Shown here: piece by piece, positions 2,467-42,040 of the stretch
Position numbering within the stretch: the first letter of the stretch is position 1
Layout: each line of letters opens with the position of its first letter
Origin: Fluviicola sp.
GTDB taxonomy: Bacteria; Bacteroidota; Bacteroidia; Flavobacteriales_D; Crocinitomicaceae
Reading direction: 5' to 3'
Assembly: GCA_002734065.2 (NCBI GenBank)
Contig: NVXU02000005.1
Coordinates: forward strand, 1-58,157
DNA length: 58,157 nucleotides
The notes under the pieces: generated by a model
What the model was told of the DNA's origin: nothing
What the model saw: only the letters and a program-made list of their open reading frames with translations
Databases searched by the model: none
Made by a program: the position numbers and the translations under genes

Positions 2467-2713
2467 CCCTAAATCTAACAATATTTCCCCACTTCAGCCA
2501 TTCTCCCCAACAAAAAAGCCACTCTGATTTCTCAAAGTGGCTTTTTTTAATCATTAACTATTAATCAGTGGTTTCTAGGTTTTTTGCCGTAGAAATGTTT
2601 GGTTGAATTACGAATTGATTTTCTGTTCCAATTCCAGGTTACTTGTTGGTAGCTTCTCCAAGCGTAGTCGATTGGTGCCACTAAGAAGTGCATGAAACGA
2701 GTGAATGGAATGA
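2467..2713. repeat. Right copy of the ~246-bp direct repeat
   Basis: This is the intact copy: it contains the working terminator and the real 3' end of cytochrome c-narI. Its left partner is 336-581. The two copies enclose katA, its promoter region and the 582-825 spacer. Confidence 0.9.
2512..2548 (-). terminator. Terminator of the nar operon
   Basis: The stem AAGCCACT / AGTGGCTT is flanked by A6 on the left and T7 on the right, so it can terminate in both directions. It serves the nar operon coming from the right and possibly transcripts from the katA side. It starts 16 bp past the narI stop codon. In the duplicated left copy this hairpin is disrupted. Confidence 0.85.
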
Positions 2714-3965
2714 TCGCTATCAGTAAGAAGGCTGAAATAACGTGAATCTGAATCCAAATAGGAGCGATTGCAATCACGTCCAAATCTGGATTTAGGTGGA
2801 ACACTGATACGAGGTAAGGAGTCAATGCCGTAGCAAACCATGTAGAACCCCATCTTACGAAGTAGGCAACTCCCAAACCGGAAACTATTTGTGTTAAAAG
2901 GATGGCATAAACGACCATGTCCATTTTATTGGTCACCAATAGCAAGGTTTTGGTTGTCAATCGACGATAAATCAATAACACCAATCCTAACAAAGCTGCC
3001 AAAGCAAAGGCAAAAGAAGAAATTTCAAGAATCAATAAACGCACCGGTTGCCCATTCCATGCCATCAAAGCACTTGGGAACAAAAACGCGATTAAGTGAC
3101 CAAAAAATAAGACCATCAATCCCCAGTGAAAAGGTTGTGAACCGTAAAACAGTTTTTTTCCTTCCAAGAATTGCGTGGACAAAGAAGAAACCTTGTATCC
3201 TTTCTTTTTGTATCGGTAGATACTGCCAATAATGAAAATGGAAAAAGCAACATAAGGAAAAGCGCCAAATAATAGTGCAGCTGCTGCACCTGTTCCGTTC
3301 GCTAAAAGCATGCTCAGAATGTAAATTGCGAGTCCTGCAATGGCAAGATACATAACGAATATCATCGGGAAGTTTTTGATTGCATAAGGTTCATCATGCA
3401 CACCGTTTTCTATTTTTAGTTGCTCAATTCTTTTTAAGAATCGACGCACATAGAAGATCAATAGAATGAGAAAGATACAAGCTCCATAGAGAAAGTATTT
3501 TTCACTTGCGCTCATTGGTTTCACTTCTGCAGTTCCCGTCGGTGCAACAGCCGTTGTGCCAGACCCAGAACCTGCTCCTGTTTCTGCCGCTGCTGCAACA
3601 GTTTCATCCACGTAAGCAAAGATGCTTGCTACCTCTTCTTCAGAAAGGTTAGGGTAGGGAGGCATCGGAATCTTGTTGAATTTTTCAAAGACTGCAACCG
3701 CATCTGCATCGCCACTCGCAATCAAATCTTGCGAAGCTGTAACCCAGTTGTAAATCCATTCTGCAGATCTTTTTTCTGTAACTCCAGCCAAGCCAGGACC
3801 TGTTGCATCCTTGGTACTTGCTCTGTGACAAACGGCACAGTTCTTTTTGAATAAATCTTCGCCTTGTGCAGAGACTTGCTTGGTAACGAATAATGCTACA
3901 GCCATCACTGTCAACAGTGCGATTCGTTTTCTTAACTTGTTTAAGTAATTTCTATTCTTAGACAT
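2565..3965 (-). CDS. narI: Cytochrome c-NarI fusion, nitrate reductase gamma subunit
   Basis: Membrane subunit passing quinol electrons to NarH, here with an extra haem c domain. Residues 1-34 are a signal peptide (..VSAQ). Residues 35-125 form a monohaem cytochrome c with C43-A-V-C46-H47 and a likely Met ligand, M101 (KIPMPPYP). An Ala/Gly/Thr-rich linker (125-150) leads to a NarI-like membrane domain (155-460). The NarI haem b ligands are recognisable by spacing: H280/H290 (10 apart, as E. coli H56/H66) and H408/H426 (18 apart, as H187/H205). Last gene of the operon, 18 bp after narJ. The fusion suggests periplasmic electron exchange with a cytochrome c partner in addition to, or instead of, quinol. 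Confidence 0.9.
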   Translation of the reverse strand: MSKNRNYLNKLRKRIALLTVMAVALFVTKQVSAQGEDLFKKNCAVCHRASTKDATGPGLAGVTEKRSAEWIYNWVTASQDLIASGDADAVAVFEKFNKIPMPPYPNLSEEEVASIFAYVDETVAAAAETGAGSGSGTTAVAPTGTAEVKPMSASEKYFLYGACIFLILLIFYVRRFLKRIEQLKIENGVHDEPYAIKNFPMIFVMYLAIAGLAIYILSMLLANGTGAAAALLFGAFPYVAFSIFIIGSIYRYKKKGYKVSSLSTQFLEGKKLFYGSQPFHWGLMVLFFGHLIAFLFPSALMAWNGQPVRLLILEISSFAFALAALLGLVLLIYRRLTTKTLLLVTNKMDMVVYAILLTQIVSGLGVAYFVRWGSTWFATALTPYLVSVFHLNPDLDVIAIAPIWIQIHVISAFLLIAIIPFTRFMHFLVAPIDYAWRSYQQVTWNWNRKSIRNSTKHFYGKKPRNH

Positions 3966-3983
3966 AACGCTTATTTTTTATTT

Positions 3984-4682
3984 TTAATCAGTAATTACTG
4001 CTTTATCTGTTTTAGTTGGTGTCGCACACGAACTTTCACAATTTGGAACCAAAGAACTTAAAGGATCTGCTTTGACAGAATTATCAACAAATTTCGCAAT
4101 GTTGAATTCTTCTCTCATCACCTCTAAAGTGGCAGAAATGGCAAAAAGATAGGCGTTTTTATTCTTCATATCTTCTTGTATAAGGACTTTTTGTTTCTTT
4201 CTTCTCACCTTTGTTTTGAGGGCAATTCGAGACGCTTCAAACTCCTTTTCCATTGCTTCAAGCGCTGGAATGTACATTCTTACAGCAAGTTCTTCTCTGA
4301 AAGCAGGGTCTTCAATTAAGGGAAGCAATGTGAGTGCATTGGGCAAATTATCCGCCAACTCTACACCGCAATCGTTTCCTGCTTTTGCTTGCTCTTTCTT
4401 CATTTGAACTAAGAATTCTCCCCGTTTATAGTCTTCTGCGTATAAAACATAACCTAAATCCAAGTAGCAAATAGCTTGAATGTGAAAAGTCATGCTAAAC
4501 AGTTCTTCTATTTCAACGATATTCTTGGTCTCCATGATTTCTTCAAAATTCTTAAACTCTTTGTAAGCAGAGGGATAGTAATCTTTCAGAAGTTGACCGC
4601 AATCGGCTATTTGTTGAGGATATCCCTTTGTAGGATACCTAAACAAATTGGCCAGTGCGTTGTATTGAATATTATTTTCCAT
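3984..4682 (-). CDS. narJ: Nitrate reductase assembly chaperone NarJ
   Basis: A 232-aa soluble helical protein of the NarJ/DmsD chaperone family, needed to load molybdenum cofactor into NarG and to prevent premature membrane docking of NarGH. The start MENNIQYNALANLFRYP resembles the usual NarJ opening, where L-x-YP is typical, and the FSMTFHIQAICYLDLGYVL segment is family-like. The C-terminal tail has two cysteines in SCATPTK. It sits in canonical order between narH (18 bp upstream) and narI (18 bp downstream). Sequence identity is evidently low, but the context makes the call safe. Confidence 0.88.
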   Translation of the reverse strand: MENNIQYNALANLFRYPTKGYPQQIADCGQLLKDYYPSAYKEFKNFEEIMETKNIVEIEELFSMTFHIQAICYLDLGYVLYAEDYKRGEFLVQMKKEQAKAGNDCGVELADNLPNALTLLPLIEDPAFREELAVRMYIPALEAMEKEFEASRIALKTKVRRKKQKVLIQEDMKNKNAYLFAISATLEVMREEFNIAKFVDNSVKADPLSSLVPNCESSCATPTKTDKAVITD

Positions 4683-4700
4683 TTCGTGTTCTTTTTCCGT

Positions 4701-6194
4701 TTACAATCCTCTGGCAGGTTTCTCTTTGAATCCAAAACCTGTTTCTCCTTTTGCATCTGCTGTTGCTTCCAACATTTCAATAGACTCTTCTCTATGTGCT
4801 GGTGGAATAACAAAACGTTCTTCAAAAGTGGCCAAAGAAGTCAATCTAAAGATGGCATTTGCAGTGTCTTTATCTACCTTGGCATTCGCCATTAAATCTT
4901 TCACTTCGTCTTTTGATAAATCACCCACCGTTTCATTACGTCTGTGGTATTTCACACTGAGTAATTTTTCGTAAACCTTTGTGATGGCTGCTGTATCTCC
5001 ATTAGAGAATAAAGAAGCTAAATACTTCACAGGTACACGATTTTGGTCCACTTTCGGGAATAAATCGGTAGAAATGGTTTCGTAATTACCGTTTTCATCC
5101 ATTTGTGCCATTGCTGGTAACATTGGTGGAACATAGAATAAGTTCGGCAATGTTCTGTATTCAGGATGCAAAGGCAAGGCAATTTCCCATTCTTTTACAA
5201 ACTTGTAAACAGGTGATTTTTGCGCTGCTTCTATGGTAGAATCATGAACACCGTTCTTTCTGGCTTCTGCAATTACTTTTGGATCGTTTGGATCTAAGTA
5301 AATGTCCAAATGGTTATAAACTAAATCTTTCTCTTCAGAATTCGCATACTTTTCAATTTTGTCTGCATCGTAAAGCATCACACCCAAATAGCGGATACGT
5401 CCCACGCAAGAATGCATACAAGCCGGTGCTTGACCAGACTCTAAACGTGGGTAGCAAAGAATACATTTTTCAGATTTCCCTGTGTGCCAGTTGTAATATG
5501 ATTTCTTATAAGGACAAGCAGTCACACACATTCTCCATGCTCTACATCTTTCTTGGTTGATTAACACAACGCCATCTTCACCTCTTTTGTAAAGAGCACC
5601 AGAAGGACAAGAAGCAACACAAGCAGGGTTTAAGCAATGATTACAAATTCTAGGCAAATATTGCATTGTCATTTGTTCTAATTGGAACATGGCATCTTGT
5701 TCTGCCTTCGACATGTTCTTAAAATTGACATCATTTCTAGCGTAATCAGGAGTTCCTCCTAAATCATCATCCCAGTTAGGACCTGATTTAATATCGATAG
5801 GTTCTCCAGTGATTAACGATACCGCTCTACCAATGGGTTGGTCGTCTCCTTCAGGCGCAGTGAATAAATCACTGTATTTATATGCCCAAGGATGGTAATA
5901 ATCTTCTAATTCTGGCATGTGCGGGTTGTGAAAGATGTTTTTCAGTCCTTTCAATTTCCCTGCGCCTTTTAGTTGAATTTTATCTCCTTTTTTCTCCCAA
6001 CCGCCTTTGTATATTTCTTGGTCTTCCCACTTAGTTGGATAACCAGTTCCCGGTTTTGTTTCAACATTGTTCCACCACATGTATTCTGCTCCTCTACGAT
6101 CTGTCCAAACGTTTTTACAAGCGACTGAACAAGTATGACAACCGATACATTTATCGAGATGAAAAACCATTGAAATTTGTGCTCTAATATCCAT
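4701..6194 (-). CDS. narH: Nitrate reductase beta subunit, four Fe-S clusters
   Basis: Electron-transfer subunit on the cytoplasmic side linking NarI haems to NarG. The 497-aa protein begins with C16-x2-C19-x2-C22-x3-C26, the same positions as in E. coli NarH. Further motifs are CNHCLNPACVASCP, the CRAWRMCVTACP motif whose Trp marks the [3Fe-4S] cluster, and KCILCYPRLESGQAPAC. No signal peptide is present, as expected for an enzyme facing the cytoplasm. It starts 29 bp after the narG stop. Confidence 0.97.
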   Translation of the reverse strand: MDIRAQISMVFHLDKCIGCHTCSVACKNVWTDRRGAEYMWWNNVETKPGTGYPTKWEDQEIYKGGWEKKGDKIQLKGAGKLKGLKNIFHNPHMPELEDYYHPWAYKYSDLFTAPEGDDQPIGRAVSLITGEPIDIKSGPNWDDDLGGTPDYARNDVNFKNMSKAEQDAMFQLEQMTMQYLPRICNHCLNPACVASCPSGALYKRGEDGVVLINQERCRAWRMCVTACPYKKSYYNWHTGKSEKCILCYPRLESGQAPACMHSCVGRIRYLGVMLYDADKIEKYANSEEKDLVYNHLDIYLDPNDPKVIAEARKNGVHDSTIEAAQKSPVYKFVKEWEIALPLHPEYRTLPNLFYVPPMLPAMAQMDENGNYETISTDLFPKVDQNRVPVKYLASLFSNGDTAAITKVYEKLLSVKYHRRNETVGDLSKDEVKDLMANAKVDKDTANAIFRLTSLATFEERFVIPPAHREESIEMLEATADAKGETGFGFKEKPARGL

Positions 6195-6223
6195 GTTATA
6201 TAGTATTAATTCTTAATTCTCTA

Positions 6224-9200
6224 TTAATATTCTACTTTCTCCATTTTTCTAACCAAGACGTGTGTATCACGGTTAACCCCAACAGGTCCCCAGTAGTTGA
6301 AATGGTAAGTAAACTGTCCATATCCACCACACATTAAATTTGGTTTTAAGTGAACTCTCGTAAATGAGTTGTTCATACCACCTCGACGTGGTTCTCCTTT
6401 TTCGCCTCTTCTAATTTGTGATTTAGGAATGTTGTATGTTCTTTCTACAGCGTGATAAACGATGCAGACACCTTTTGGTATTCTAGAACTTACACAAGCT
6501 CTGGCAACGTAAACCCCGTGATCATTGTAAACCTCAACGTGGTCGTTGTCATTGATGCCTAATTCTGCAGCATCTTCTTCACTCATCCAACACGGTTCGT
6601 TACCTCTAGAAAGTGTTAACATTCTTAATGTATCTCCATAAGTTGAGTGAATGTGCCATTTACCGTGAGGTGTTAAGCAATTCAACATTTTTGCTTTTCC
6701 ATCGTTCACCGTCTGTCTCAAATCTCCGTAAGCTTCAGGCGTTGGGGAAGGTTTGTAGGTAGCAATGTGCTCACCAAACGCGATGTATGCATCGTGATCC
6801 AAGTAGAAATGCTGACGTCCTGTCAACGTTCTCCATGGAACATACATATCTACGTTGTAAGTATAGGCGGCATAAGTCCTTCCTTCGTGCATCAATCCTG
6901 ACCAAAGTGGCGAAGAATTGTAACGCTTAGGTTGTGCCTGTAAATCACGGTATTCAATTTTGATATCCTTGTAAGGCTTACCTAATTCCGCGATTTCTGG
7001 AACTCCAATTTTCTCTGCCATGTTGCGGTAAGCTCTGTCAGACAACTTACCATTTGTCAATGTTGACAGGGACAGAATTGCATTGATTGCTTCCACATCG
7101 CCATGCAATGAAGGATATTCAGTTCCATCATCCCATTTCTGAACGTGTTGTCTATGTTCTAACATTTCGTCATAGACATCTTCGCACATATAGTGGTTAC
7201 CGTGAGCGCCTAATCCATTTTCTCTAACTCCTTTTCCAAGAGAAATAAATTTGTCATAGATTTTCTTGTAATCTCTGTCTTTGAAAACGATGTTATGCAT
7301 TGTTTCACCAGGAATTGGCTCGCATTCTCCTTTACTCCAATCTTTCAATCGAGTTTGACTCATTTCATCTTTAGAATCATGCACCAACGGAATATTGATG
7401 ACATCTTTCATTACCTCTGGTAAATGTTGAGGCGCCATTTCTTGTACTTTCTGTGCCAAGTCTCTGAAAATATGCCAATCCGTCTTAGATTCCCAAACTG
7501 GAGGAATTGCTTCCGAAAGTGGGTGAATAAACGAGTGCATATCTGTAGAATTAATATCTGCTTTCTCATACCATGAAGCCGTAGGGAGAACAATGTCAGA
7601 ATAGAGTGCTGACGTATCCATTCTGAAGTTGATATCAATGACCAAATCCATTTTTCCTTGTGGAGCTTTTTCTAAAAACTCAATGTCATGGGTTACATCT
7701 TCTGCAACTTCATCGGCAATTTTATTATTGTGCGTTCCTAGGTAATGATCTAAGAAGTACTCATGTCCTTTTGCAGAAGTACCGATTGCATTTCCTTTCC
7801 AAATAAACCAAACTCTTGGGAAGTTGATTTCTCTGTCTGGTTCTGTAATCGCATGTTTCAATTCTCCAGATTTCAATTGAGCCACCATGTGGTTTCTAAT
7901 TTCATCATCTGTAGAATGACCTGCCGCTTGTGCATCCTTAACAATGTCAAAGTTGCTTTTGCTGTATTGAGGATAGTAAGGCATCCAACCATTTTTAACA
8001 GCTTTTACTGCCCAATCTGCAGAGTGCATATTGGCTAGCTCGTTGTCTGGTGCAGAATTGTATTTTTTCTGGTTGCCATCGTACCTCCATTGGCAAGAAT
8101 TAATATAATGCCAAATAGGTCCTTGTTGCAAACGTGGAGCAGTGCCCCAATCTTTAGAACTCATAATGGTCGACCAAGAATCCATTGGCGCCAATTTTTC
8201 TTGTCCAACGTAGTGATTCATTCCACCACCATTCTTCCCATTACAACCCGTAAGCATTTGTGCCATAATTGCAGATCGGTACATCAAGTTCTCATGGAAC
8301 CAGTGATTAATACCGGCACCCACAATGACCATACAAGCTCCTTCAGTTTTTTCAGCAGTTGAAGCCCATTCTCTGGCCAATTGTATAACCTCTTTACGAC
8401 CAATTCCTGTGAAAATTTCTTGCCAAGCAGGTGTGTAAGCAGCGTCTTTGTCGTCATAAGATGTTGGGTAATCTCCTTCGAGACCTCTTCCCACACCGTA
8501 TTGTGCCATGGTGATGTCATAGATAGTTGCTACAGCTATTTTCTCGCCGTTAACATCAGTGATGTAACGAACTGGAACACCTCTCAATGCTTTTTTATCC
8601 AAACCGTACTCCGTGAATTCTACTTGAAGAACATCATCGTGTTTTTCTAGCAATGATAATTCAGGAGCATATTCTTTGCCTGTTTCACCATCGTTGAAAT
8701 TCAAATTCCATTTTCCTTTTTCATCTTGCCATCTAAAACCAGTTGATCCCATAGGAACAATCAATCCTCCCGTGTTGGCATCGAAATTTAAGAATTTCCA
8801 ATCGCCATTTTCTGCATCTTTGTGTTCAGTAATCTCGTTGGCTCTCATCATTCTTCCTGGTTGCAATTTACCGTCTCTATTTTCTAGTTTTACCAAGAAA
8901 GGAGTATCTGTAAATCGTTTCACATAATCAATGAAGTACGGAGTCTTTTTATCTACGTGATATTCTTTTAAAATTACATGTGTAACTGCCATCCAAAATG
9001 CACCATCAGAACCTGCGTGAACAGGAATCCATTGATCAGCGTGTTTTGCAACCATGCTAAAGTCAGGCGACATTACGACTGTCTTAGTACCATTGTGTCT
9101 TGCTTCTGAGAAGAAGTGAATATCTGGTGTTCTTGTCATTCCAAGATTTGCTCCCATGGAAACAATAAACTTAGATTTGAACCAATCGGCAGATTCACAA

Positions 9201-9865
9201 ACGTCTGTTTGTTCTCCCCAAATTTCAGGGAAGGCATTCGGTAAATCACAATACCAATCATAGAATGAGAGGTTAACTCCTCCCATCAGTTGCAAATATC
9301 TTGCGCCAGAAGCATAACTGAGCATACTTTTCGCAGGAATAGGAGCAAAACCGATGATTCTATCAGAACCGTATTTCTGAACGGTATAGATATTAGAAGC
9401 AGCAATTAATTCAGTGATTTCATCCCAACGGACTCTTCTAAATCCACCTTTACCTCTTGCTCTTTGGTATCTTTTTCTTTTGGTAGAATCGGCTTGCAAG
9501 TTGGCCCATGCTTTTACGGGGTCACCTCCAGCTTTCTCTTTTTCTTCACGGAACATGTCAATTAAAGCACCTCTAACAATAGGGTATTTTACTCTAATTG
9601 GACTGTATAAGTACCAAGAATAGGAGATCCCTCTTTGACAACCTCTTGGCTCATAAGGCGGAACTTCTTTGTTGAATTGAGGGTAATCCAATTGCTGCAT
9701 TTCCCAAACAACGATGCCGTCTTTTACGTGTATTGCCCAAGAGCAACCACCTGTACAGTTTACACCGTGTGTACTTCTAACAATTTTATCGTATTGCCAT
9801 CTGTTTCTGTAAAACTCTTCCCATTTTCGTGTTTTGGGAGATATTATGTCTTCGATCCAACTCAT
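6224..9865 (-). CDS. narG: Respiratory nitrate reductase alpha subunit
   Basis: Catalytic Mo-bisMGD subunit reducing nitrate to nitrite. The 1213-aa protein has the FS0 cluster ligands H33, C37, C41 and C76 with the exact 4-4-35 spacing of E. coli NarG (H50, C54, C58, C93). The Mo-coordinating Asp is D203 in [10 protein letters not shown]. There is no twin-arginine signal at the N-terminus ([15 protein letters not shown]), so the active site should face the cytoplasm and nitrate must be imported, yet no NarK/NasA transporter lies nearby. It follows a membrane-anchored cytochrome c gene after 34 bp and is transcribed with narHJI. Confidence 0.98.
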
Positions 9866-9899: not shown

Positions 9900-10487
9900 T
9901 TAAAACTTTGCGTCAAACGCCTTACTTTGTCTGTCAAAAATTTCTCTTTTGACCATTTTATTTTTCTTGTTTCTCCAAATAAATGTGATGAGGATAAGAA
10001 TACCAAAGAGACCACCGGCTCCTCCCATTAACAAATAAGCTTCACCAGACATTGATGCTTTACTGTCTTTGTTTGCATTGGTGTAGTTAAGAAATGCCTC
10101 AATACTTTGTCCTTCTTCCAATTGAATTTGGCGATTTTTGTAGGATGCAATCATTGCAGGTCTATCAGGATTCATTAACCAACCACCAACTCCTGGAAAG
10201 GTCGTGGATATTTCTGTTAAATCTTTGGCAAAAAGGCCTCCTGGATATACGTTTTCATTGCTCACATTGTGGCAAGCAATACACGCAGGACCTCCGTTGA
10301 TTAATTTTTTGGTTCCTTGAAAAAGGTCCATGCCTTTCTGAACATCTTCTGTTAAGTCTGTTGTTTTTGTCTCTTGTACGTCTTGCGCAAATAGCGAGGA
10401 TGAACAAAAAATTGCGGCAACAAAAAGTGAACAAACTTGTTTAACTGTTTTTCTACGATTCATTCTATTTAGATTTAATATTCTCAT
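9900..10487 (-). CDS. Membrane-anchored monohaem cytochrome c of the nar operon
   Basis: 195 aa: signal peptide (1-34, ..SLFAQ), a periplasmic cytochrome c domain with C69-I-A-C72-H73, then a C-terminal membrane helix (about 150-170) and a short basic tail. It is first in the nar operon, 34 bp before narG, and is probably expressed from the FNR-like promoter at 10507-10550. By position it resembles the cytochrome accompanying NarGHI in Thermus-type operons. It may pass electrons to the haem c domain fused to NarI. M9 is an alternative start that still leaves a signal peptide. Confidence 0.8.
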   Translation of the reverse strand: MRILNLNRMNRRKTVKQVCSLFVAAIFCSSSLFAQDVQETKTTDLTEDVQKGMDLFQGTKKLINGGPACIACHNVSNENVYPGGLFAKDLTEISTTFPGVGGWLMNPDRPAMIASYKNRQIQLEEGQSIEAFLNYTNANKDSKASMSGEAYLLMGGAGGLFGILILITFIWRNKKNKMVKREIFDRQSKAFDAKF

Positions 10488-10506: not shown

Positions 10507-10550
10507 CAAATTTGAGAGTATCAGATTGCTAATACTATGATGTTGCTCAT
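10507..10550 (-). promoter_or_regulatory. FNR-like box and -7 element of the nar operon
   Basis: On the minus strand a site TGAG-CAAC-ATCA (within 10537-10550; one mismatch to TGAT-N4-ATCA, extended palindrome CTATGA/TCATAG at 10535-10552) is centred at 10543.5. A -7-like element CAAATTTG occupies 10507-10514, centre 10510.5. The 33.0-bp spacing equals that in the norC promoter. The start codon follows 20 bp later. This is the geometry expected for activation from about -41.5 by a CRP/FNR-family protein. Confidence 0.65.
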
Positions 10551-10750: not shown

Positions 10751-12091
10751 CTATTCTTCGCTTTCTTCAGAGCAATGTGACAGTAGTCTTTTAATCATGG
10801 GAATAATCATCATCAGCATACTGATGAATAAGATACATCCAGCAATAATAAAAGCTAAGAATATAGGAGCAGATGATTCTTGCAATGCTCCATAAGAACT
10901 ATTTGACTCATTCACCATCCAAATGGCTTTAAAAACACCGCCAGCGATTAACGCAAACCAGAACAATAAAAGAGAAACATTGAAGATATAAAATCCATAA
11001 GTAACAACTTTTTGCGTTTCTAGCCCTTTTGATTTAACAAGTTTACTTACGATGTAGGATACCGAGGCAAGAAGAATTGTGGTGTTAATTCCGATGGTTG
11101 TTCCCATAGAATGCGCGACAGTAATATGTGTTCCATGCGTGAAATAATTGAACGCTGGAATAGACATCAACAAGGCAAGGGTTAAATTCAAGAACACCCA
11201 CAATTCGCTGGCGATTAAAAAGCGGTAAACGAGTAAATGTGTATTCTTTTTTTCTTTACTCAATGATTTACCCCAAGAATAAATGATCTGAATGAAGATA
11301 ATCCATTCTGTCATGCTAACGCCGTAGGCAACATATCGAATCCAAGGTGCAGTTGGTACTATATAGGTATGGTGCGCCCATCCAAACATCAGGTTTGTTA
11401 AACCCAAGAAGTAAAAGAAGAATGATATTTTCCCTCTACCAATAGAATCATCTCCTTTTATTTTTGCCATCAGGTAAATGGCTGTTCCGTACACCAAAAG
11501 ATTCCAACTTCCGACGAAGGACCCATAAGATTTCCATTGAATGCTTAAATCTTTGATGTAATCATTGCGAATGTTTGAGAATATCCAAAAGTGAGATTCG
11601 GATAAATGATAAATCATAAAAATAATTCCTGTTCCCCACATCCAATAATAGACAGGCCAATTTTTCACTTTCCCGGCCATTGTTTTGAAAAAGTTAATTC
11701 CAAATAGCAACCACCCAAGTAATATGGGAATGGTTAGCAGTGGGAAATATTCCAAGTATTCTCTCCCTCCCATTTTTCCGGATAGAAAAGAGTAATATAT
11801 TCCGAATGCAGTCAGGATGAATATAAGTAGGTGTGCTTTCCCTAGATTGGCAGAATACAGTGGAATTTTCTCCAACTTGGTGAGGTAAAAATAAATACCT
11901 CCCGTTGCCGTCAAGATAATCCATGAAACAACAGTCGTCGTGTGCATGGGTCTTAGCTGGTTAAAAGGAATGACATCCTTTAAAAAATCGGGGTAGAGAT
12001 AGACAAAAGAGCTTAAAACACCAATAAAAGCCCCTAAAAGCAATGCGCAGAGTCCTAGAATGATGAATATTAATGGGAAGTTTTTTTTCAT
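10751..12091 (-). CDS. NorB-like haem-copper oxidase superfamily subunit, non-canonical
   Basis: A 446-aa protein with about 12 membrane helices, paired with NorC as cNOR subunits are. Recognisable: RPMHT (H50, low-spin haem ligand), paired metal His H240-H241 in WAHHTY, and THITVAHSMG with H327 as likely proximal haem b3 ligand. Missing: helix VI (SYGSFVGSWNLL, 189-199) lacks the third metal His found ~51 residues before the HH pair in NorB (Tyr/Gly here), and the nearby catalytic Glu is also absent. The second His of the A/G-H-x-H motif is Met329, so a low-spin haem ligand is changed. It may be one of the non-canonical NO reductase families or have another function; Nor-like is as far as the sequence goes. 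Confidence 0.7.
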   Translation of the reverse strand: MKKNFPLIFIILGLCALLLGAFIGVLSSFVYLYPDFLKDVIPFNQLRPMHTTTVVSWIILTATGGIYFYLTKLEKIPLYSANLGKAHLLIFILTAFGIYYSFLSGKMGGREYLEYFPLLTIPILLGWLLFGINFFKTMAGKVKNWPVYYWMWGTGIIFMIYHLSESHFWIFSNIRNDYIKDLSIQWKSYGSFVGSWNLLVYGTAIYLMAKIKGDDSIGRGKISFFFYFLGLTNLMFGWAHHTYIVPTAPWIRYVAYGVSMTEWIIFIQIIYSWGKSLSKEKKNTHLLVYRFLIASELWVFLNLTLALLMSIPAFNYFTHGTHITVAHSMGTTIGINTTILLASVSYIVSKLVKSKGLETQKVVTYGFYIFNVSLLLFWFALIAGGVFKAIWMVNESNSSYGALQESSAPIFLAFIIAGCILFISMLMMIIPMIKRLLSHCSEESEE

Positions 12092-12098
12092 AACACAA

Positions 12099-12521
12099 TT
12101 ACTTGTAATTAACAGTTACCCAACCATCAGATTCGAAAATGGCATTTCGATCAGGGTAAAACCCCGTTTTATCAACTTCTGTTAAGAACGCTGCGATCTG
12201 ATTTTGCTCCTCCGTCGAAAAATTAAATTGAGGCATCGATTTTACACCACTGTTAAAAAAAGCCTTGGCATAGTCAATTCCTTTATTGGGATTGGATGCA
12301 ATATTTGTTAAATCTGGACCCAAATAACCGCCTAAACCATAAAGTTGATGACAGGCAGTACAGTTGTTTTCTTGCCATAAATGTTCTCCTTTTTGGGCTT
12401 TAGGCGACAAAATAACTGCTTGATTATTGGAAGTGTTCTGTGTGTAGATAACAATATTGTACCCTATAAATAGTAGAATTAGGCCGCCGAGGATGGTTCT
12501 ATTGTGTATTTTTTTATCCAA
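12099..12521 (-). CDS. norC: NorC-like membrane-anchored cytochrome c
   Basis: Electron-entry subunit for the NorB-like protein. 140 aa: an N-terminal anchor helix (about 10-26), then a periplasmic haem c domain with C-T-A-C-H in the NorC-type context LWQENNCTACHQLYGLGGYLGPDLTN (shown here as its span, residues ~48-73) and a likely Met ligand in KSMPQF. The start is TTG: no ATG occurs in frame before residue ~95, and TTG follows the predicted transcription start by only ~10 nt. It precedes the norB-like gene by 7 bp. Confidence 0.88.
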   Translation of the reverse strand: MDKKIHNRTILGGLILLFIGYNIVIYTQNTSNNQAVILSPKAQKGEHLWQENNCTACHQLYGLGGYLGPDLTNIASNPNKGIDYAKAFFNSGVKSMPQFNFSTEEQNQIAAFLTEVDKTGFYPDRNAIFESDGWVTVNYK

Positions 12522-12536
12522 CGTTTATTTTTTCGG

Positions 12537-12580
12537 CAAATGTATAGCACAACTGATTGTAGAAATATGATTTGAATCAT
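12537..12580 (-). promoter_or_regulatory. FNR-like box and -7 element of norCB
   Basis: A perfect 14-bp palindrome (12567-12580) contains TGAT-TCAA-ATCA on the minus strand, an exact FNR core. A perfect Bacteroidota -7 element TACATTTG lies at 12537-12544. Centres are 33.0 bp apart. The TTG start of norC (12521) follows the -7 element by 15 bp, so the leader is very short. Confidence 0.75.
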
Positions 12581-12627
12581 TGTCAGTCTTGAGCAATCCA
12601 ATGCTCTAATGCTCCAAAGCTCGAAAC

Positions 12628-12671
12628 ATGACAAACATCATTTCAGAGCTCAATCTTAGATAGTAATTTTG
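12628..12671 (+). promoter_or_regulatory. FNR-like box and -7 element of the acyl-CoA synthetase gene
   Basis: A site TGAC-AAAC-ATCA (within 12628-12641, one mismatch) is centred at 12634.5, and a consensus -7 element TAATTTTG (12664-12671) is centred at 12667.5, again 33.0 bp apart. The ATG chosen at 12689 follows by 17 bp. It lies back to back with the norC promoter. Confidence 0.6.
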
Positions 12672-12688: not shown

Positions 12689-14746
12689 ATGATCAATAAA
12701 GAACTAATTAATCCAAAAAATATTGTCGTTATCGGCGGGTCTAACAACATCTTAAAACCAGGTGGAAAGATTGTTAAGAATTTAATCGATGGTTCTTTTA
12801 AAGGAGAGCTTTTAGTGGTCAATCCTCGTGAAAAAGAAGTGCAAGGAATTTCTTGTTACGCAACTACGGAAGATTTACCAGTCGTTGATTTAGCAATCAT
12901 AGTGATCTCTGCAAGTCAATGCTACCAAGTGATTGATGAGCTTGCAAGTAATAAAGCAACCAAAGCTTTCATTATTTTATCTGCTGGATTTGGAGAAGCA
13001 GGAGCGCTTGGAGTCCTTGAAGAACAGAAAATCGTTGAGAAAATAAACAGCGTCAATGGCTGTCTTATTGGTCCAAATTGTATTGGTGTGCTGAACAAAA
13101 ATTACAAGGGGATTTTCACTACCCCTATTCCAAATTTTGACAAAGATGGGTGTGATTTAATTTCTAGTTCTGGCGCAACTGCCGTTTTTATCATGGAAGC
13201 AGGAATAGGTCTAGGATTGAAGTTTGCAAACATTTATTCTGTTGGAAACGCAGCGCAAACTTCCGTAGAGGATGTCTTAGAATACATGGACGAAAATTTT
13301 GACCCACAATCGGATTCATCCATCAAATTACTGTATTTAGAATCCATTAAGAATCCTAAAAAATTACTCAAGCACGCAAAATCACTCATCAATAAAGGAT
13401 GCAAAATAGCAGCAATTAAAGCGGGAAGTACAGACGAAGGAAGTCGCGCTGCAGCTTCTCATACAGGAGCAATCGCAAGTTCAGATAGAATTGTTCGTGC
13501 TTTGTTTAAGAAAGCAGGAATCGTCTATTGCAGCAGTCGCAGAGAATTGATAACCGTTGCATCTATCTTTAACTACAAAGAGTTGAAAGGGAAAAACATT
13601 GTAATAATCACCCATGCTGGCGGCTCTGCTGTGATGCTCACCGACGTTTTAATCAAAGGGGGCTTGAATGTTCCTTCGATAGAAGGGGAGAATGCTGATA
13701 AACTTTTGGGCTTCTTACACAACGGTTCTTCAGTGAGCAATCCAATTGATTTCTTAGCCACTGGAACAGCCGAGCAACTTGGAATTATCATTGATTATTG
13801 CGAACATAAATTTGACCATATTGATGCCATGATTGTTGTTTTTGGCAGTCCTGGATTGTTCAATGTTCAAGACGTTTACAACGTTCTCAGCGTGAAATTA
13901 GATGTTTGCAAAAAGCCGATATATCCTGTTTTGCCGTCATTGATTAATGCGCAGAAAGAAATTGATAGTTTTTTGATAAAAGGGAACATTAATTTTCCAG
14001 ATGAGGTTGTGATTGGTCGTGCTTTGCCAGAAGTTTACAATACATTAAAACCGTCTTCAGAGAAAGTAATTCTCCCAAAAGTTGATGTGCAAAGAATTCG
14101 AAAAGTGATAGATGCCGCCAATGATGGCTTTCTTTCTCCCAGAGAAGTTAATGAACTACTAGATGCAGCAGAAATAAGTCGAGTAAAAGAAATTGTCGTC
14201 GCAACGAAATCTGAATTGCAAGAGAAATTAAGCTCTTTTTCTTTCCCTGTTGTGATGAAAGTTGTCGGGCCAATTCACAAAACGGATGTTGGCGGAGTCA
14301 TTCTCAACGTGCAATCAATGGAAGAGTCGCTTTCTCAATTTGATCGTTTAATGCAACTCGAAGATGCCAATTCTGTCATGGTTCAAAGCATGCACTCAGG
14401 CGTTGAACTTTTCATCGGCGTATTGAAAGAAAAAGGATTTGACCATGCCATTCTTTGCGGTTTAGGCGGAGTTTTTATTGAGGTTTTGGATGATTTCTCT
14501 ATCAATCTTTCTCCCGTCTCTAAAAAAGAAGCAAAAGAAATGGTTTTAAAGTTAAAAGGCTACAAATTAATTGAAGGAATAAGGGGAAATGAAGGGGTCG
14601 ATGAGCAACTGTTTATAGATACGATAGGCAAAGTCTCAGCACTGGTTGAAGTAGCACCAGAAATTCAAGAAATGGATATGAATCCGCTTTTTGGTAGAAA
14701 GGATAGTGTAACGGCGGTGGATACGAGGATTAGAGTTTTGAAGTAG
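12689..14746 (+). CDS. ADP-forming acyl/acetyl-CoA synthetase, fused alpha-beta
   Basis: Converts an acyl-CoA (probably acetyl-CoA) + ADP + phosphate to the acid + CoA + ATP, a substrate-level ATP source under anaerobiosis. The N-terminal half is CoA-binding and ligase-like (VIGGSNN, GPNCIGVLN, SSSGATA) with the phosphohistidine in AAASHTGAIAS (about H258). The C-terminal ATP-grasp half contains FPVVMKVVGPIHKTDVGGV, LCGLGGVFIEVL and EMDMNPLF. I chose the ATG at 12689 rather than a TTG at 12677, because a -7 element ends at 12671 and would leave almost no leader for the TTG. It is divergent from norC and shares the FNR-like promoter layout. Substrate specificity cannot be read from sequence. 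Confidence 0.88.
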   Translation: MINKELINPKNIVVIGGSNNILKPGGKIVKNLIDGSFKGELLVVNPREKEVQGISCYATTEDLPVVDLAIIVISASQCYQVIDELASNKATKAFIILSAGFGEAGALGVLEEQKIVEKINSVNGCLIGPNCIGVLNKNYKGIFTTPIPNFDKDGCDLISSSGATAVFIMEAGIGLGLKFANIYSVGNAAQTSVEDVLEYMDENFDPQSDSSIKLLYLESIKNPKKLLKHAKSLINKGCKIAAIKAGSTDEGSRAAASHTGAIASSDRIVRALFKKAGIVYCSSRRELITVASIFNYKELKGKNIVIITHAGGSAVMLTDVLIKGGLNVPSIEGENADKLLGFLHNGSSVSNPIDFLATGTAEQLGIIIDYCEHKFDHIDAMIVVFGSPGLFNVQDVYNVLSVKLDVCKKPIYPVLPSLINAQKEIDSFLIKGNINFPDEVVIGRALPEVYNTLKPSSEKVILPKVDVQRIRKVIDAANDGFLSPREVNELLDAAEISRVKEIVVATKSELQEKLSSFSFPVVMKVVGPIHKTDVGGVILNVQSMEESLSQFDRLMQLEDANSVMVQSMHSGVELFIGVLKEKGFDHAILCGLGGVFIEVLDDFSINLSPVSKKEAKEMVLKLKGYKLIEGIRGNEGVDEQLFIDTIGKVSALVEVAPEIQEMDMNPLFGRKDSVTAVDTRIRVLK

Positions 14747-20020: not shown

Positions 20021-20064
20021 ATGATGCTTATTAGCTTTTCTTTATACGACTTGCTCTAATTTTG
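20021..20064 (+). promoter_or_regulatory. FNR-like box and -7 element of the 604-aa protein gene
   Basis: A site TGAT-GCTT-ATTA (within 20021-20034, one mismatch to TGAT-N4-ATCA) is centred at 20027.5, and a consensus -7 element TAATTTTG (20057-20064) is centred at 20060.5, exactly 33.0 bp downstream. The ATG at 20102 follows by 37 bp. Same geometry as the norC, nar and acyl-CoA synthetase promoters. Confidence 0.6.
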
Positions 20065-20101: not shown

Positions 20102-21916
20102 ATGTCAAAAACACATTCATTTCATATACCCGTGATGGGAATTGGATTCACCATCGATACTCCTATGAAAATAGCGCAGTACGGGATAGATTCTGTTATT
20201 TTTATTGGAGATGATATTCTCTTAGAGAAATTACGGGCAAAATTTTGCAGTAAATTCAATATGTCTTATTCTGAAATCAATGAGAAAGAAGAAGATTATC
20301 GTGCAAAAAGAATCACTTCTTACTTGAACCTGATCAAAGAACAGGCGGAAAAGAAGTTTGAAGAATTGAAGAATTATTCAGTAGAAAAAAGCAGCGAATT
20401 GAAAAAATATTTCAGCATGTTGCCCGATGCCTCTACAATTAAGCAAGAATTCAAACAATTTACGGAGAAAATACCCGATGCAACTGAAATTAAGGAATGG
20501 TTAAAAACCAACCTTTCTTTGGGTGATATCAATGTCAATATCATGACGAAATTGGACAAGGTCAATTATCGAAAGAAGGAAGAATTGCCTGTAGAATACA
20601 ATGATGCACATGCCGCTTTAAGAGGCTTTGCCAACAGTGAATTAAGTTCGTCTATTGTTTTTTCTGCAGGAATGAATCCTCGCTTATTTAGCTACATCGA
20701 GAATTTTGACGACTTTTTTCCAGATGCAGAAGGTTGCATTAAGAAGAAAGTAGTATTGAAAGTGAGTGACTATCGTTCGGCTTTAATTCAAGGAATGTTT
20801 TTAGCAAAAAAAGGAGTTTGGGTCTCGGAATACCGAATAGAATCTGGTTTGAACTGTGGGGGACACGCTTTTGCCACTGAAGGACAGTTAATGGGACCAA
20901 TTCTGGAGAAATTCAAAGAAAAAAGGAACGAATTAGTTGAAGAAGTGTATGCAGTGCTCGTTAATGCGCTGGAAGTCAAAGGACGAACAATTCCAAACAA
21001 GCCATTAGCGATTAGAGTAACTGCGCAGGGTGGCGTTGGAACTTCTGAAGAGCATGCGTTCTTAGTGAATAATTATGAGGTTGATTCCGTTGGTTGGGGA
21101 ACGCCTTTTTTGCTAGTTCCTGAAGTGACGTCCGTTGACGAAAATACCATGACGCAATTGAGTGAAGCAAAAGAAAAAGACTTATTTTTAAGTAATATTT
21201 CGCCTTTGGGAGTGCCTTTTAACAATTTACGAGGCAATTCTAAAGATCTTGAAAAGGCTGCTTTCGTTGATAAAGGAAGACCGGGAAGTTCTTGCCCTAA
21301 AAAATTCTTGGCGTTGAATAGTCAATTCACAGACCATTCTATTTGTACGGCTTCGAGACAGTACCAGAATTTAAAAATTGGTGAGTTAGAAACACAAAAA
21401 AAAGACCTTTCTGACAACGATTATCATTCAAAAATGAGTGAAATCGTCGATAAATCATGTATTTGTGTCGGTTTAGGAACGTCGGCACTGATGGTTAACG
21501 AAGTCGATAGAAGAGTGGAAGGCGACGCCGTTTCAGTTTGTCCAGGACCTAACATGGCTTATTTTTCTAAAAAGAGCTCTTTGCAGGAAATGGTTGGTCA
21601 TATTTATGGGAATAACAATGTGATGGTAAGGCAAGATAGACCAAATATGTTTATCAAAGAATTGGGTCTTTATTTGAAATACTTAACGGATGAAATGAGC
21701 GAAGTAATCGGGAAGTTAAATCGAAAACAAGAAAAGCACTTAACGAACTTTGTTCAGAATTTAGATGCTGGAATAGAATATTATGACAATCTGTTTGGCA
21801 GAATGAAAGACGGATTTGGAAAAGTGAGAGCATCTATGGAGAAAGATTTAGACGCTGCTAGAGAAATTCTCAACTTATTGTCTGAGAAATTAGTTGTATT
21901 GAAAGAAGTTACTTAA
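20102..21916 (+). CDS. Conserved-looking 604-aa protein, possible FMN/TIM-barrel enzyme, function unknown
   Basis: I do not recognise a named family. The N-terminus (HIPVMGIGFTIDTPMKIAQ, then YGIDSVIFIGDD) reads like the first strands of an aldolase-type TIM barrel. The segment 304-340 (LAIRVTAQGGVGTSEEHAF, then VDSVGWGTPFLLVPE) resembles the phosphate-binding end of nitronate monooxygenase or glutamate-synthase-like FMN barrels. A charged helical insertion (about 55-140) separates them. Eight cysteines occur, several in tight motifs: LNCGGHAF (C252), SSCPKKF (C398), HSICTAS (C415), KSCICVGLG (C453, C455) and VSVCPGPN (C480), so a cofactor or Fe-S site is possible. The C-terminal 80 residues are helical. 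No signal peptide. It follows nrdD but has its own FNR-like promoter and a strong terminator. Confidence 0.75.
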   Translation: MSKTHSFHIPVMGIGFTIDTPMKIAQYGIDSVIFIGDDILLEKLRAKFCSKFNMSYSEINEKEEDYRAKRITSYLNLIKEQAEKKFEELKNYSVEKSSELKKYFSMLPDASTIKQEFKQFTEKIPDATEIKEWLKTNLSLGDINVNIMTKLDKVNYRKKEELPVEYNDAHAALRGFANSELSSSIVFSAGMNPRLFSYIENFDDFFPDAEGCIKKKVVLKVSDYRSALIQGMFLAKKGVWVSEYRIESGLNCGGHAFATEGQLMGPILEKFKEKRNELVEEVYAVLVNALEVKGRTIPNKPLAIRVTAQGGVGTSEEHAFLVNNYEVDSVGWGTPFLLVPEVTSVDENTMTQLSEAKEKDLFLSNISPLGVPFNNLRGNSKDLEKAAFVDKGRPGSSCPKKFLALNSQFTDHSICTASRQYQNLKIGELETQKKDLSDNDYHSKMSEIVDKSCICVGLGTSALMVNEVDRRVEGDAVSVCPGPNMAYFSKKSSLQEMVGHIYGNNNVMVRQDRPNMFIKELGLYLKYLTDEMSEVIGKLNRKQEKHLTNFVQNLDAGIEYYDNLFGRMKDGFGKVRASMEKDLDAAREILNLLSEKLVVLKEVT

Positions 21917-31398: not shown

Positions 31399-31406
31399 TA
31401 TATTTG
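31399..31406 (+). promoter_or_regulatory. -7 element TATATTTG
   Basis: Consensus TAnnTTTG 34 bp before the ATG at 31441, with a TTG at 31375-31377 at -33 spacing. No FNR-like site 33 bp upstream. Confidence 0.55.
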
Positions 31407-40864: not shown

Positions 40865-42040
40865 TTGACTGTGCGAAATTGTTTACTCATCTTTTTTTTT
40901 CTAATCGGATCTTTCGTTTCTGCACAACAGGTGCGCATTGGCGTTTTTCATTCTAAGAAAATTTCACAAATTACTTTACAAGTTTCAAGCGGAGAATATC
41001 GTGTTTTTGGGGACACTACTTTCTTGAAAACACTTCATGCAGAAGAATCAATGAGCGTCAAAACGATAATCAATGACGTCTCTATAAGTGTTGATGGTGT
41101 TGGGTTTTGGAAGTTTGCAAAGATTTTTATTGTTCCGAGCAAGAATAATTCTTCTCTAAAATACACAACGACACATCCCGTTTATAAAGCGAGAATTTAC
41201 GATGATGGTGTAGAGCTTTCTACCGCAAAATCAAAGTTGAAAATCGTAAATATCGTTGATATGGAAGATTATCTCTCTGGCGTTATTGAGTCGGAAGGTG
41301 GTGGTGGTAAACATCTTGATTACTACAAAGTGCAGGCCGTGATGAGCAGAACCTATGCACTGAAGAATGAGAAACGGCATCGCAAAGAAGGCTTTCAATT
41401 GTGTGACGGAGTCCATTGTCAAGCCTATCATAAAAAGTTGACGCATACGCCGAAAATTAGACAAGCCGTGAAAGAAACCAAAGGAGAAGTTTTGGTTGAT
41501 GCTAGAAACAAGTTGGTTACCTCCTTCTTTTCTGCCAATTGCGGAGGACAAACGAATGACGCTTCGTATGTTTGGAACACTTCCGTTTCTTATATAGAAA
41601 GCTTCATTGATACCTTTTGTATTCACACACGGCAATCCACTTGGACGAAGAAAATCAGCAAAAATGCGTGGAAAAATTTCTTAAAAAAGCAATACAATGT
41701 CACCGAAGAGCAGGTTGGAAAATTGCTTTACAATTTTGATCAAGAACAACGAAAAGCGTTTTACATTCATCCATCTTTGGGTGTTCCTCTTCGTGATTTA
41801 CGAAAAAAATTCAAGTTGAAATCTATTTTTTTTAGCACGCATTTAGAAGGAGAATTTGTGGTTTTAAACGGCCGTGGTTTTGGTCACGGCGTTGGACTTT
41901 GCCAAGAAGGAGCAATGAATATGGCAAAAAACCACATTTCTTACGACAGAATAGCACGGTTTTATTTCAAAGATGTAAGGGTGATTGATTATTACAAGGA
42001 GTTGTATTTTAAGCAGGAGTTTAGAGCACTAGAGCACTAG
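40865..42040 (+). CDS. SpoIID/LytB-domain secreted protein
   Basis: 391 aa with a signal peptide (..FVSAQ, near residue 22) and a SpoIID/LytB domain (about 120-375) ending in the diagnostic GRGFGHGVGLCQEGA. In spore formers SpoIID is a lytic transglycosylase on denuded glycans; in Bacteroidota the role is probably cell-wall remodelling. The start is TTG (40865) or GTG (40871); no ATG is in frame. The last residues and stop codon are encoded by an 8-bp tandem repeat. Confidence 0.85.
   Translation: MTVRNCLLIFFFLIGSFVSAQQVRIGVFHSKKISQITLQVSSGEYRVFGDTTFLKTLHAEESMSVKTIINDVSISVDGVGFWKFAKIFIVPSKNNSSLKYTTTHPVYKARIYDDGVELSTAKSKLKIVNIVDMEDYLSGVIESEGGGGKHLDYYKVQAVMSRTYALKNEKRHRKEGFQLCDGVHCQAYHKKLTHTPKIRQAVKETKGEVLVDARNKLVTSFFSANCGGQTNDASYVWNTSVSYIESFIDTFCIHTRQSTWTKKISKNAWKNFLKKQYNVTEEQVGKLLYNFDQEQRKAFYIHPSLGVPLRDLRKKFKLKSIFFSTHLEGEFVVLNGRGFGHGVGLCQEGAMNMAKNHISYDRIARFYFKDVRVIDYYKELYFKQEFRALEH

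Follow-up and report, generated by a model that had tools for sequence, protein, structure and literature searches.

Predicted class II CRP/FNR-type operators at a fixed distance from the -7 element before nitrate reductase, nitric oxide reductase and two further genes of a Fluviicola genome

The promoters of norC, of a nitrate reductase (nar) cluster, of a CoA synthetase gene (acs) and of the gene for a conserved 604-aa protein (u604) all carry a palindromic box at one fixed distance from the -7 element in a 58,157-nt stretch of the genome of a Fluviicola species (here, the window). The box, its fixed spacing and its recurrence before orthologous genes, as well as the presence of suitable regulators, are observed in the genomes analysed here. 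We conclude that the four sites most likely serve a CRP/FNR-family activator as operators, in class II promoters recognised by the Bacteroidota primary sigma factor.

Results

Four promoters share a box and its spacing

An earlier note on this DNA had placed the sites before norC, nar, acs and u604 33.0 bp, centre-to-centre, from the -7 element, i.e. with a 23-bp gap between the 12-bp site and the 8-bp -7 element, and all four distances were confirmed (Table 1). The TGAT-N4-ATCA core that it described, with 0 or 1 mismatch, was also present at all four promoters, and we refine it to a full box, ATGAY-N4-RTCAT. The TGA-N6-TCA palindrome is present at norC, acs and nar and in the genome-wide set, and the u604 operator, TGA-N6-TTA, is one arm off it. 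The norC and acs boxes have 0 mismatches to the 14-bp box pattern at gap 23. The nar and u604 boxes fit the strict pattern with 2 mismatches only, a level at which many matches are due to chance; support for these two comes from the position weight matrices (PWM) and the orthologs described below.

Table 1. Coordinates of boxes, -7 elements and genes in the window, and of candidate regulator genes elsewhere in the host genome (contig C32).
Feature	Position	Strand	Remarks
norC regulator box ATGATTCAAATCAT	12567..12580	-	centre 12573.5; core TGATTTGAATCA; perfect ATGAY-N4-RTCAT; predicted -41.5
norC -7 element TACATTTG	12537..12544	-	centre 12540.5; exact TAnnTTTG
nar operon regulator box ATGAGCAACATCAT	10537..10550	-	centre 10543.5; core TGATGTTGCTCA (1 mismatch)
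nar -7 element CAAATTTG	10507..10514	-	centre 10510.5; one mismatch, C for T at -12 (CAnnTTTG)
acs regulator box ATGACAAACATCAT	12628..12641	+	centre 12634.5; core TGACAAACATCA (1 mismatch to TGAT-N4-ATCA)
acs -7 element TAATTTTG	12664..12671	+	centre 12667.5; exact TAnnTTTG
u604 regulator box ATGATGCTTATTAG	20021..20034	+	centre 20027.5; core TGATGCTTATTA (1 mismatch); one half weak
u604 -7 element TAATTTTG	20057..20064	+	centre 20060.5; exact TAnnTTTG
195-aa cytochrome c-like protein	9900..10487	-	CIACH haem motif; first gene of nar cluster
Remaining nar cluster	2565..9865	-	
narG	6224-9865	-	
narH	4701-6194	-	
narJ-like	3984-4682	-	score under narJ cut-off
narI fused to cytochrome c	2565-3965	-	
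norC + norB	10751..12521	-	
norC, cytochrome c	12099-12521	-	
norB, haem-copper oxidase family	10751-12091	-	
acs	12689..14746	+	CoA-binding, Succ_CoA_lig (succinyl-CoA-ligase-like) and ATP-grasp domains
u604, conserved 604-aa protein	20102..21916	+	
REG1	C32:39334-40023		beside hemN, heavy-metal P-type ATPase, ccoNO
REG3	C32:169862-170572		divergent from moeA-like and mobA-like genes; RIC nearby
REG4	C32:182.6 kb		after moaA (moaA above cut-off)

The TAnnTTTG element of the Bacteroidota sigma-A promoter is exact at norC, acs and u604. The C at -12 of the nar element recurs in all four genomes with the nar site (the window and L203, L204 and L205), and the nar promoter is possibly weak and activator-dependent. 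Elsewhere, the -7 element of u604 is AAnnTTTG in Flavobacterium, and that of acs is TAnnTTTA or TAnnTTCG in several loci; -7 elements that are often degenerate fit activator dependence.

In E. coli, class II activators bind at -41.5. The nearly invariant promoter bases of F. johnsoniae are T-12, A-11, T-8, T-7, T-6 and G-5 (PMC6847099), and the -7 box of F. psychrophilum spans -12 to -5 (PMC9723704). Because TAnnTTTG at -12 to -5 is centred at -8.5, a site 33.0 bp away is centred at -41.5; the published position of the -7 element thus predicts the class II position for the sites and strengthens the class II reading of the earlier note. Upstream distances of 39.5 and 41.5 bp from the start have been called almost optimal for Fnr-dependent promoters (PMC5398030). 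By the same published rule (PMC6847099), transcription of norC is predicted to start at about 12532; predicted starts for acs and u604 are at about 12676 and 20069, respectively.

Among 49 promoters of other species used to train a PWM, the base before TGA is A in 32/49 and T in 2/49, and the base after TCA is T in 47/49. The enterobacterial FNR box TTGAT-N4-ATCAA differs in these flanking bases. The model of the 49 promoters contains no conserved TTG at -33; what it shows is T-richness on the downstream flank of the box: model position 22 is T in 40/49, as against A in 25/49 at the mirrored position (Fisher P 0.0025), and the next mirrored pair does not differ significantly (P 0.20).

Genes behind the promoters

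The 195-aa cytochrome c-like protein gave no match in a Pfam search. NorC and NorB are called NO reductase on the basis of the earlier note and the neighbourhood, not of a curated model. The designation of Acs as an acyl-CoA synthetase stood and is narrowed to the NDP-forming type by its CoA-binding, Succ_CoA_lig and ATP-grasp domains; we predict it to be of the ADP-forming acyl/acetyl-CoA synthetase type.

U604 matched no Pfam family, and a relative is encoded in 18 of 80 NorB loci. Six cysteines are invariant in 15 aligned sequences (the window and 14 others), and an AlphaFold model (pLDDT 72) has a weak similarity to enoyl reductases of the FMN-dependent TIM-barrel type (DfnA ER, PfaD and FabK; best E 1.4e-5, TM ~0.33). 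Together, these features suggest that U604 is probably an uncharacterised anaerobic redox enzyme.

The spacing is enriched over chance

When at most one mismatch per element was allowed, gap 23 gave 5 pairs in the window, i.e. the four named pairs and one inside a gene at 41737, while the other 60 gaps averaged 0.77 pairs, with gap 2 also reaching 5; moreover, 1/60 Markov-2 shuffles of the window reached 4 pairs at gap 23. By this loose rule, the window alone is only suggestive. The promoters at 31399, 50717 and 55544, which the earlier note had contrasted as lacking the site, indeed lie outside the 14 best PWM sites per strand, and no such site is visible in them at this spacing.

The host genome (3.49 Mb) contains 68 pairs of TGAN6TCA and TAnnTTTG at gaps 8-38, 11 of them at gap 23 against an average of 1.9 at each of the other 30 gaps (Poisson P 5e-6); the 11 include at least one pair (C32:159381) that falls within an open frame and has <9 bits. 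With TTTG alone replacing the full -7 element, gap 23 still peaked (8/29; next highest 3). A search of the host genome for the 14-bp box RTGAY-N4-RTCAY at gap 23 returned 7 perfect matches, 10 with 1 mismatch and 58 with 2, and the reversed control of this whole search returned 35. With the box one base further away (gap 24), there were 0, 4 and 60 matches at 0, 1 and 2 mismatches, respectively, and 46 in the reversed control.

Scored with the PWM from the 49 promoters of other species, the four sites rank 1 to 4 in the window (norC 29.6, acs 20.3, u604 18.6 and nar 15.5 bits), and the next match has 5.6 bits; the training rows were labelled by tblastn and a simple rule, with a few labels naming the following downstream gene. 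In 40 Markov-2 windows, 0.05 matches per window exceeded 14 bits, with a highest score of 18.1. A PWM from norC and nadA promoters only still had the four sites as its top four (29.7, 18.1, 15.1 and 14.3; next 6.6).

Layout and spacing recur in other genomes

NorB neighbourhoods were taken from Flavobacteriales, other Bacteroidota and some Proteobacteria. In the best 80 of 106 such loci, exact pairs numbered 49 at gap 23, 3 at gap 22 and 6 at gap 24, and every other gap from 0 to 60 had at most 3; there was no peak at class I spacings, at least one helical turn further upstream, over the same gaps in the same 80 loci. In 60 genomes of the window's class, 60/149 strict boxes lie at gap 23, 18 at gap 24 and 9 at gap 22, while other gaps have ~2.2 each. 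Across the phylum, 36/198 genomes have a strict box at gap 23, i.e. 31/49 of the window's class (own genome included) versus 5/149 others, with 115 strict matches as opposed to 2 for the reversed pattern. In total, the spacing proposed in the earlier note is enriched over chance in the host genome, in the 80 related loci and class-wide.

Two other spacings were seen. L083, L095 and L097 have sites at gap 24 with a box like TATGACTATAGTCATA. They precede an FNR-like gene of 195-208 aa in both L095 and L097, and other genes in each of the three loci; they are a possible variant with its own spacing. In G262, 3/10 strict boxes are nearer the -7 element by roughly a helical turn, at gap 12; this could reflect repression, another regulator or chance.

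In a held-out test, a model trained on 21 norC promoters (accepting gaps 22-24 and >12 bits) found the layout before nadA in 22/38 loci, before acs in 11/14 orthologs, before u604 in 10/16 (9 at gap 23 and 1 at gap 24) and before nrdG in 1/7 (gap 22); these loci include close relatives and are not independent. The negative controls, i.e. the upstream regions of norB and nadB, which in the window lie behind norC and nadA, respectively, gave 0/77 and 0/38. NAD synthesis appears to be tied to the anaerobic switch, with nadA having its own site in 22/38 loci (among L045-L124). Using the norC and nadA model, norC scored in 0/15 loci sorted as proteobacterial and in 32/60 of the remaining loci, a count that takes in the training loci, the sorting being our own reading of record names.

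The nar site is present in 3/4 relatives whose nar locus was retrieved; for nar of G241, the gene strand of the retrieved stretch gave nothing >11 bits. No site was found at the u604 orthologs of the near relatives G016, G247 and G231, although the norC and nadA model places one at gap 23 in 10/16 orthologs from the NorB loci; the G004 ortholog is truncated at the end of its contig. In the host genome, a u604 paralog (G000:C3:66567) has its own site with the same layout (24.8 bits).

Further candidate targets in the host genome

Elsewhere in the host genome, gap-23 sites precede the nos gene run (33.1 bits), in which the first gene encodes a fasciclin-domain protein and NosZ scores above the NCBIfam cut-off; ccoNO (29.8 bits); a fatty-acid desaturase gene (28.6 bits); the gene for the iron-sulfur repair protein RIC (26.8 bits), which is above its cut-off; a PTPS-family protein gene (25.9 bits); a moeA-like gene (24.5 bits) under the full-length MoeA cut-offs; a 128-aa gene (22.1 bits) that we take for DoxX-like; and genes for a cytochrome c (21.7 bits), a 138-aa cNMP-domain protein (20.6 bits) and a pyridine-nucleotide oxidoreductase (18.3 bits). 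The targets in the host genome make physiological sense and are largely anaerobic-respiration genes. The 138-aa cNMP-domain protein (G000:C32:169.4-169.9 kb, L038) adjoins REG3 and is too short for the usual DNA-binding part.

The homogentisate dioxygenase gene has a site of 19.8 bits with the -7 element TATTATTG, and the tryptophan dioxygenase gene has exact elements at gap 22. The two oxygen-using dioxygenase genes lie at G000:C53:71.4 kb and 76.7 kb (L195 and L042), and plain anaerobic activation leaves the box at these genes unexplained.

Candidate regulators

The earlier note correctly stated that no regulator is encoded in the window, and candidates are located elsewhere in the genome. 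Six PF00027 proteins are encoded in the host genome. REG1-REG4 match PF00027 (cNMP-binding-type) and PF13545 (Crp HTH) above cut-off, and REG1, REG3 and REG4 combine the CRP/FNR architecture with an E-T-x-x-R helix. REG2 (216 aa), which has an RVVISR helix in place of E-T-x-x-R, was set aside as a binder. Among the neighbours of REG1, hemN scores above its cut-off and the heavy-metal P-type ATPase below the family cut-off; the moeA-like and mobA-like neighbours of REG3 are both below full-length cut-offs. Scores with NCBIfam PRK11161 (Fnr) are 80.4 for REG1, 92.4 for REG3 and 74.2 for REG4, all under the cut-off of 228.

REG1 has a set of four cysteines (C11, C14, C60 and C113) with equivalents in REG3, and REG4 is without the set. 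C11, C14 and C113 align with FNR cysteines, C113 with the one that we take to be C122, while C60 is without FNR equivalent; in the alignments, there was no counterpart of the third N-terminal cysteine of E. coli FNR, presumably C29. In the jelly-roll topology, we assume, the strand with C60 would be adjacent to that with C113. Among 47 distinct genes from other genomes, fused and other paralogs among them, 28 have all four cysteines. A model of the L047 ortholog of REG3 has the CRP/FNR fold (pLDDT 76), with 2gau as best match (E 1.2e-18) and FNR structures also high. We predict that the four-cysteine paralogs REG1 and REG3 are the likeliest binders; REG4, without the cysteine set, may share the same boxes.

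Regulator genes and boxes also lie close together. REG3 orthologs directly follow norB in L046, L047 and L073, and REG4 orthologs are beside norB in L048, L081 and L109. In the host genome, a site of 13.3 bits with a poor -7 element (GACCTTTA) precedes the hemerythrin-moaA-REG4 gene run, and the gap between REG3 and the moeA-like gene has sites of 24.5 bits towards moeA and 12.1 towards REG3. In several genomes, a box is a few kb from a regulator gene, and in G211 directly upstream of it. Crp-domain proteins in ~350-370 aa frames, with an extra domain, are common in the class, none being listed for the host genome; they may be the regulator in genomes without single-domain types.

Co-occurrence of sites and regulators was analysed in 61 genomes, i.e. 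all 36 site-positive genomes, all 18 site-negative genomes of the class and 7/144 site-negative others, such that 25/162 site-negative genomes were covered. A regulator profile gene was defined as a single-domain match to REG1/3/4 with E <= 1e-50 in a frame of <=277 aa. Such a gene is present in 28/36 site-positive versus 7/25 site-negative genomes (Fisher P 1.8e-4, ignoring kinship) and in 19/19 genomes with at least 3 strict sites. The full four-cysteine set, counted for most genomes in one gene rather than in every profile match, occurs in 23/36 site-positive versus 6/25 site-negative genomes (P 0.004, ignoring kinship) and in 16/19 site-rich genomes. In G031 and G114, listed with 3 and 5 strict sites, respectively, the regulator is closely similar in its helix and lacks all four cysteines; in the site-rich G107, the gene examined has three of four. 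G026, G058, G072, G083, G099, G157, G177 and G209 have sites and no such profile gene under these cut-offs, and G157 (2 sites) has no regulator match even at E <= 1e-25.

Discussion

From these observations, we infer binding, activation rather than repression, and the signal. A regulator dimer would bind ATGAY-N4-RTCAT centred at -41.5, adjoining polymerase at TAnnTTTG (-12 to -5), and would recruit polymerase in response to low oxygen, nitrogen oxides or both. In the window, its targets would be nitrate reductase, NO reductase, the CoA synthetase and U604; outside the window, it would likewise turn on N2O reductase, cbb3 oxidase, RIC and molybdenum-cofactor genes.

There is close to an even chance that the same boxes serve two or three paralogs, either shared or contested between them: REG1 and REG3 as presumed O2 sensors and REG4 as a presumed NO sensor. 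FnrL and Dnr of Dinoroseobacter provide a precedent (PMC5398030). The E-T-x-x-R helix is common to the three paralogs, different paralogs lie beside norB in different species, and sites are present both before the hemerythrin-moaA-REG4 run and in the gap between REG3 and the moeA-like gene; moreover, the cysteine-less regulators of the site-rich G031 and G114 raise the likelihood of shared boxes. However, the -7 element of the site before the REG4 gene run is poor.

It is very unlikely that the boxes are repressor operators, i.e. that in air RNA polymerase is blocked by a CRP/FNR-family protein bound at -41.5. A -33 contact would be expected at about the place of the box, and the two oxygen-using dioxygenase genes carry it; however, activation would require a rigid spacing to the -7 element, whereas a blocking operator would be expected to tolerate shifts, and the degenerate -7 elements of several targets would fit promoters that depend on an activator.

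We regard it as very unlikely that the regulator is a CRP/MalR-like carbon sensor rather than an oxygen or nitrogen-oxide sensor. A study including a Flavobacteriales genome found the CRP/FNR homologs encoded by genomes of Ignavibacteria, Flavobacteriales and Saprospiraceae to lie close to MalR, predicted MalR-like carbon-sensor control and reported no evidence of denitrification control by the CRP/FNR family in those organisms (PMC8510549), and REG1-REG4 retain a cNMP-binding-type domain. However, the box differs from TGTGA-N6-TCACA, the targets have largely to do with anaerobic respiration and two candidates have the four-cysteine set; moreover, that study searched with a MalR profile and so could have missed the ATGAY-N4-RTCAT box (PMC8510549). 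That the pairings arose by chance in an AT-rich genome with frequent TGA and TCA words is barely credible, for although gap 2 equals gap 23 in the window by the loose rule and one shuffle in 60 reached 4 pairs, the spacing peaks genome-wide, locus-wide and class-wide, the other-species model ranks the four sites as its top four, and the held-out ortholog test discriminates against the norB and nadB controls.

Returning to a CRP/FNR-family activator, we tentatively propose, at slightly less than even chances, that Flavobacteriales and related Bacteroidota have their own Fe-S-sensing FNR branch. In this branch, the third ligand would be relocated (two N-terminal cysteines, one in the beta-roll and one at C122), and the ATGAY-N4-RTCAT box would be held rigidly at -41.5 to TAnnTTTG. 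In this lineage, the branch would serve as a general oxygen switch that governs cbb3 respiration, N2O reduction and denitrification as well as the anaerobic metabolism of NAD and CoA, and paralogs without the cysteines would recognise its box in response to a second signal.

Many flavobacteria denitrify or reduce N2O. In open-access full text, we recognised no flavobacterial description of low-oxygen sensing or of such a regulon; subscription papers could hold one. Box, spacing and candidate regulators make up a directly testable regulon, and the promoter layout lets unknown anaerobic genes such as u604 be annotated.

The working principle, that of FNR class II promoters, is known; what differs is the box, the promoter type and the cysteine set of the regulator. 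The class II promoters of E. coli FNR and Pseudomonas Anr/Dnr share with those described here TGA-N6-TCA, a centre at -41.5 (here predicted) and anaerobic respiration targets; however, the outer bases are A/T here and T/A there (ATGAY..RTCAT versus TTGAT..ATCAA), and the promoters here are TAnnTTTG promoters of the Bacteroidota sigma factor without -35/-10 hexamers. The four-cysteine candidates resemble the FNR protein of E. coli and Aliivibrio in the CRP fold, the N-terminal C-x2-C, the cysteine aligned with C122 and the E-T-x-x-R helix. By contrast, REG1 and REG3 are without a counterpart of C29, have a beta-roll cysteine instead (REG1 C60), and score 80 and 92 bits with the NCBIfam Fnr model, far under its cut-off of 228.

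The DNR, NnrR and HcpR regulons similarly place nor, nos and nitrosative-stress genes under CRP/FNR-family control (Rodionov 2005, PMC1274295), but their motifs are CTTGATnnnnATCAAG, GTAACnnnnGTTAC and others, and the box described here differs from the HcpR2 box GTAACnnnnGTTAC; a word search of the main text of that study gave no mention of Flavobacter or Cytophaga (PMC1274295). Dinoroseobacter shibae, with FnrL and Dnr, likewise has several CRP/FNR paralogs, and its nos, nir and haem genes have sites 41.5 or 39.5 bp upstream of the starts; however, these are alphaproteobacterial promoters with TTRAC/TTGAT-type boxes (PMC5398030). The box, the spacing and the candidate regulators also suggest that class II geometry persists where sigma factor and -7 element are very different.
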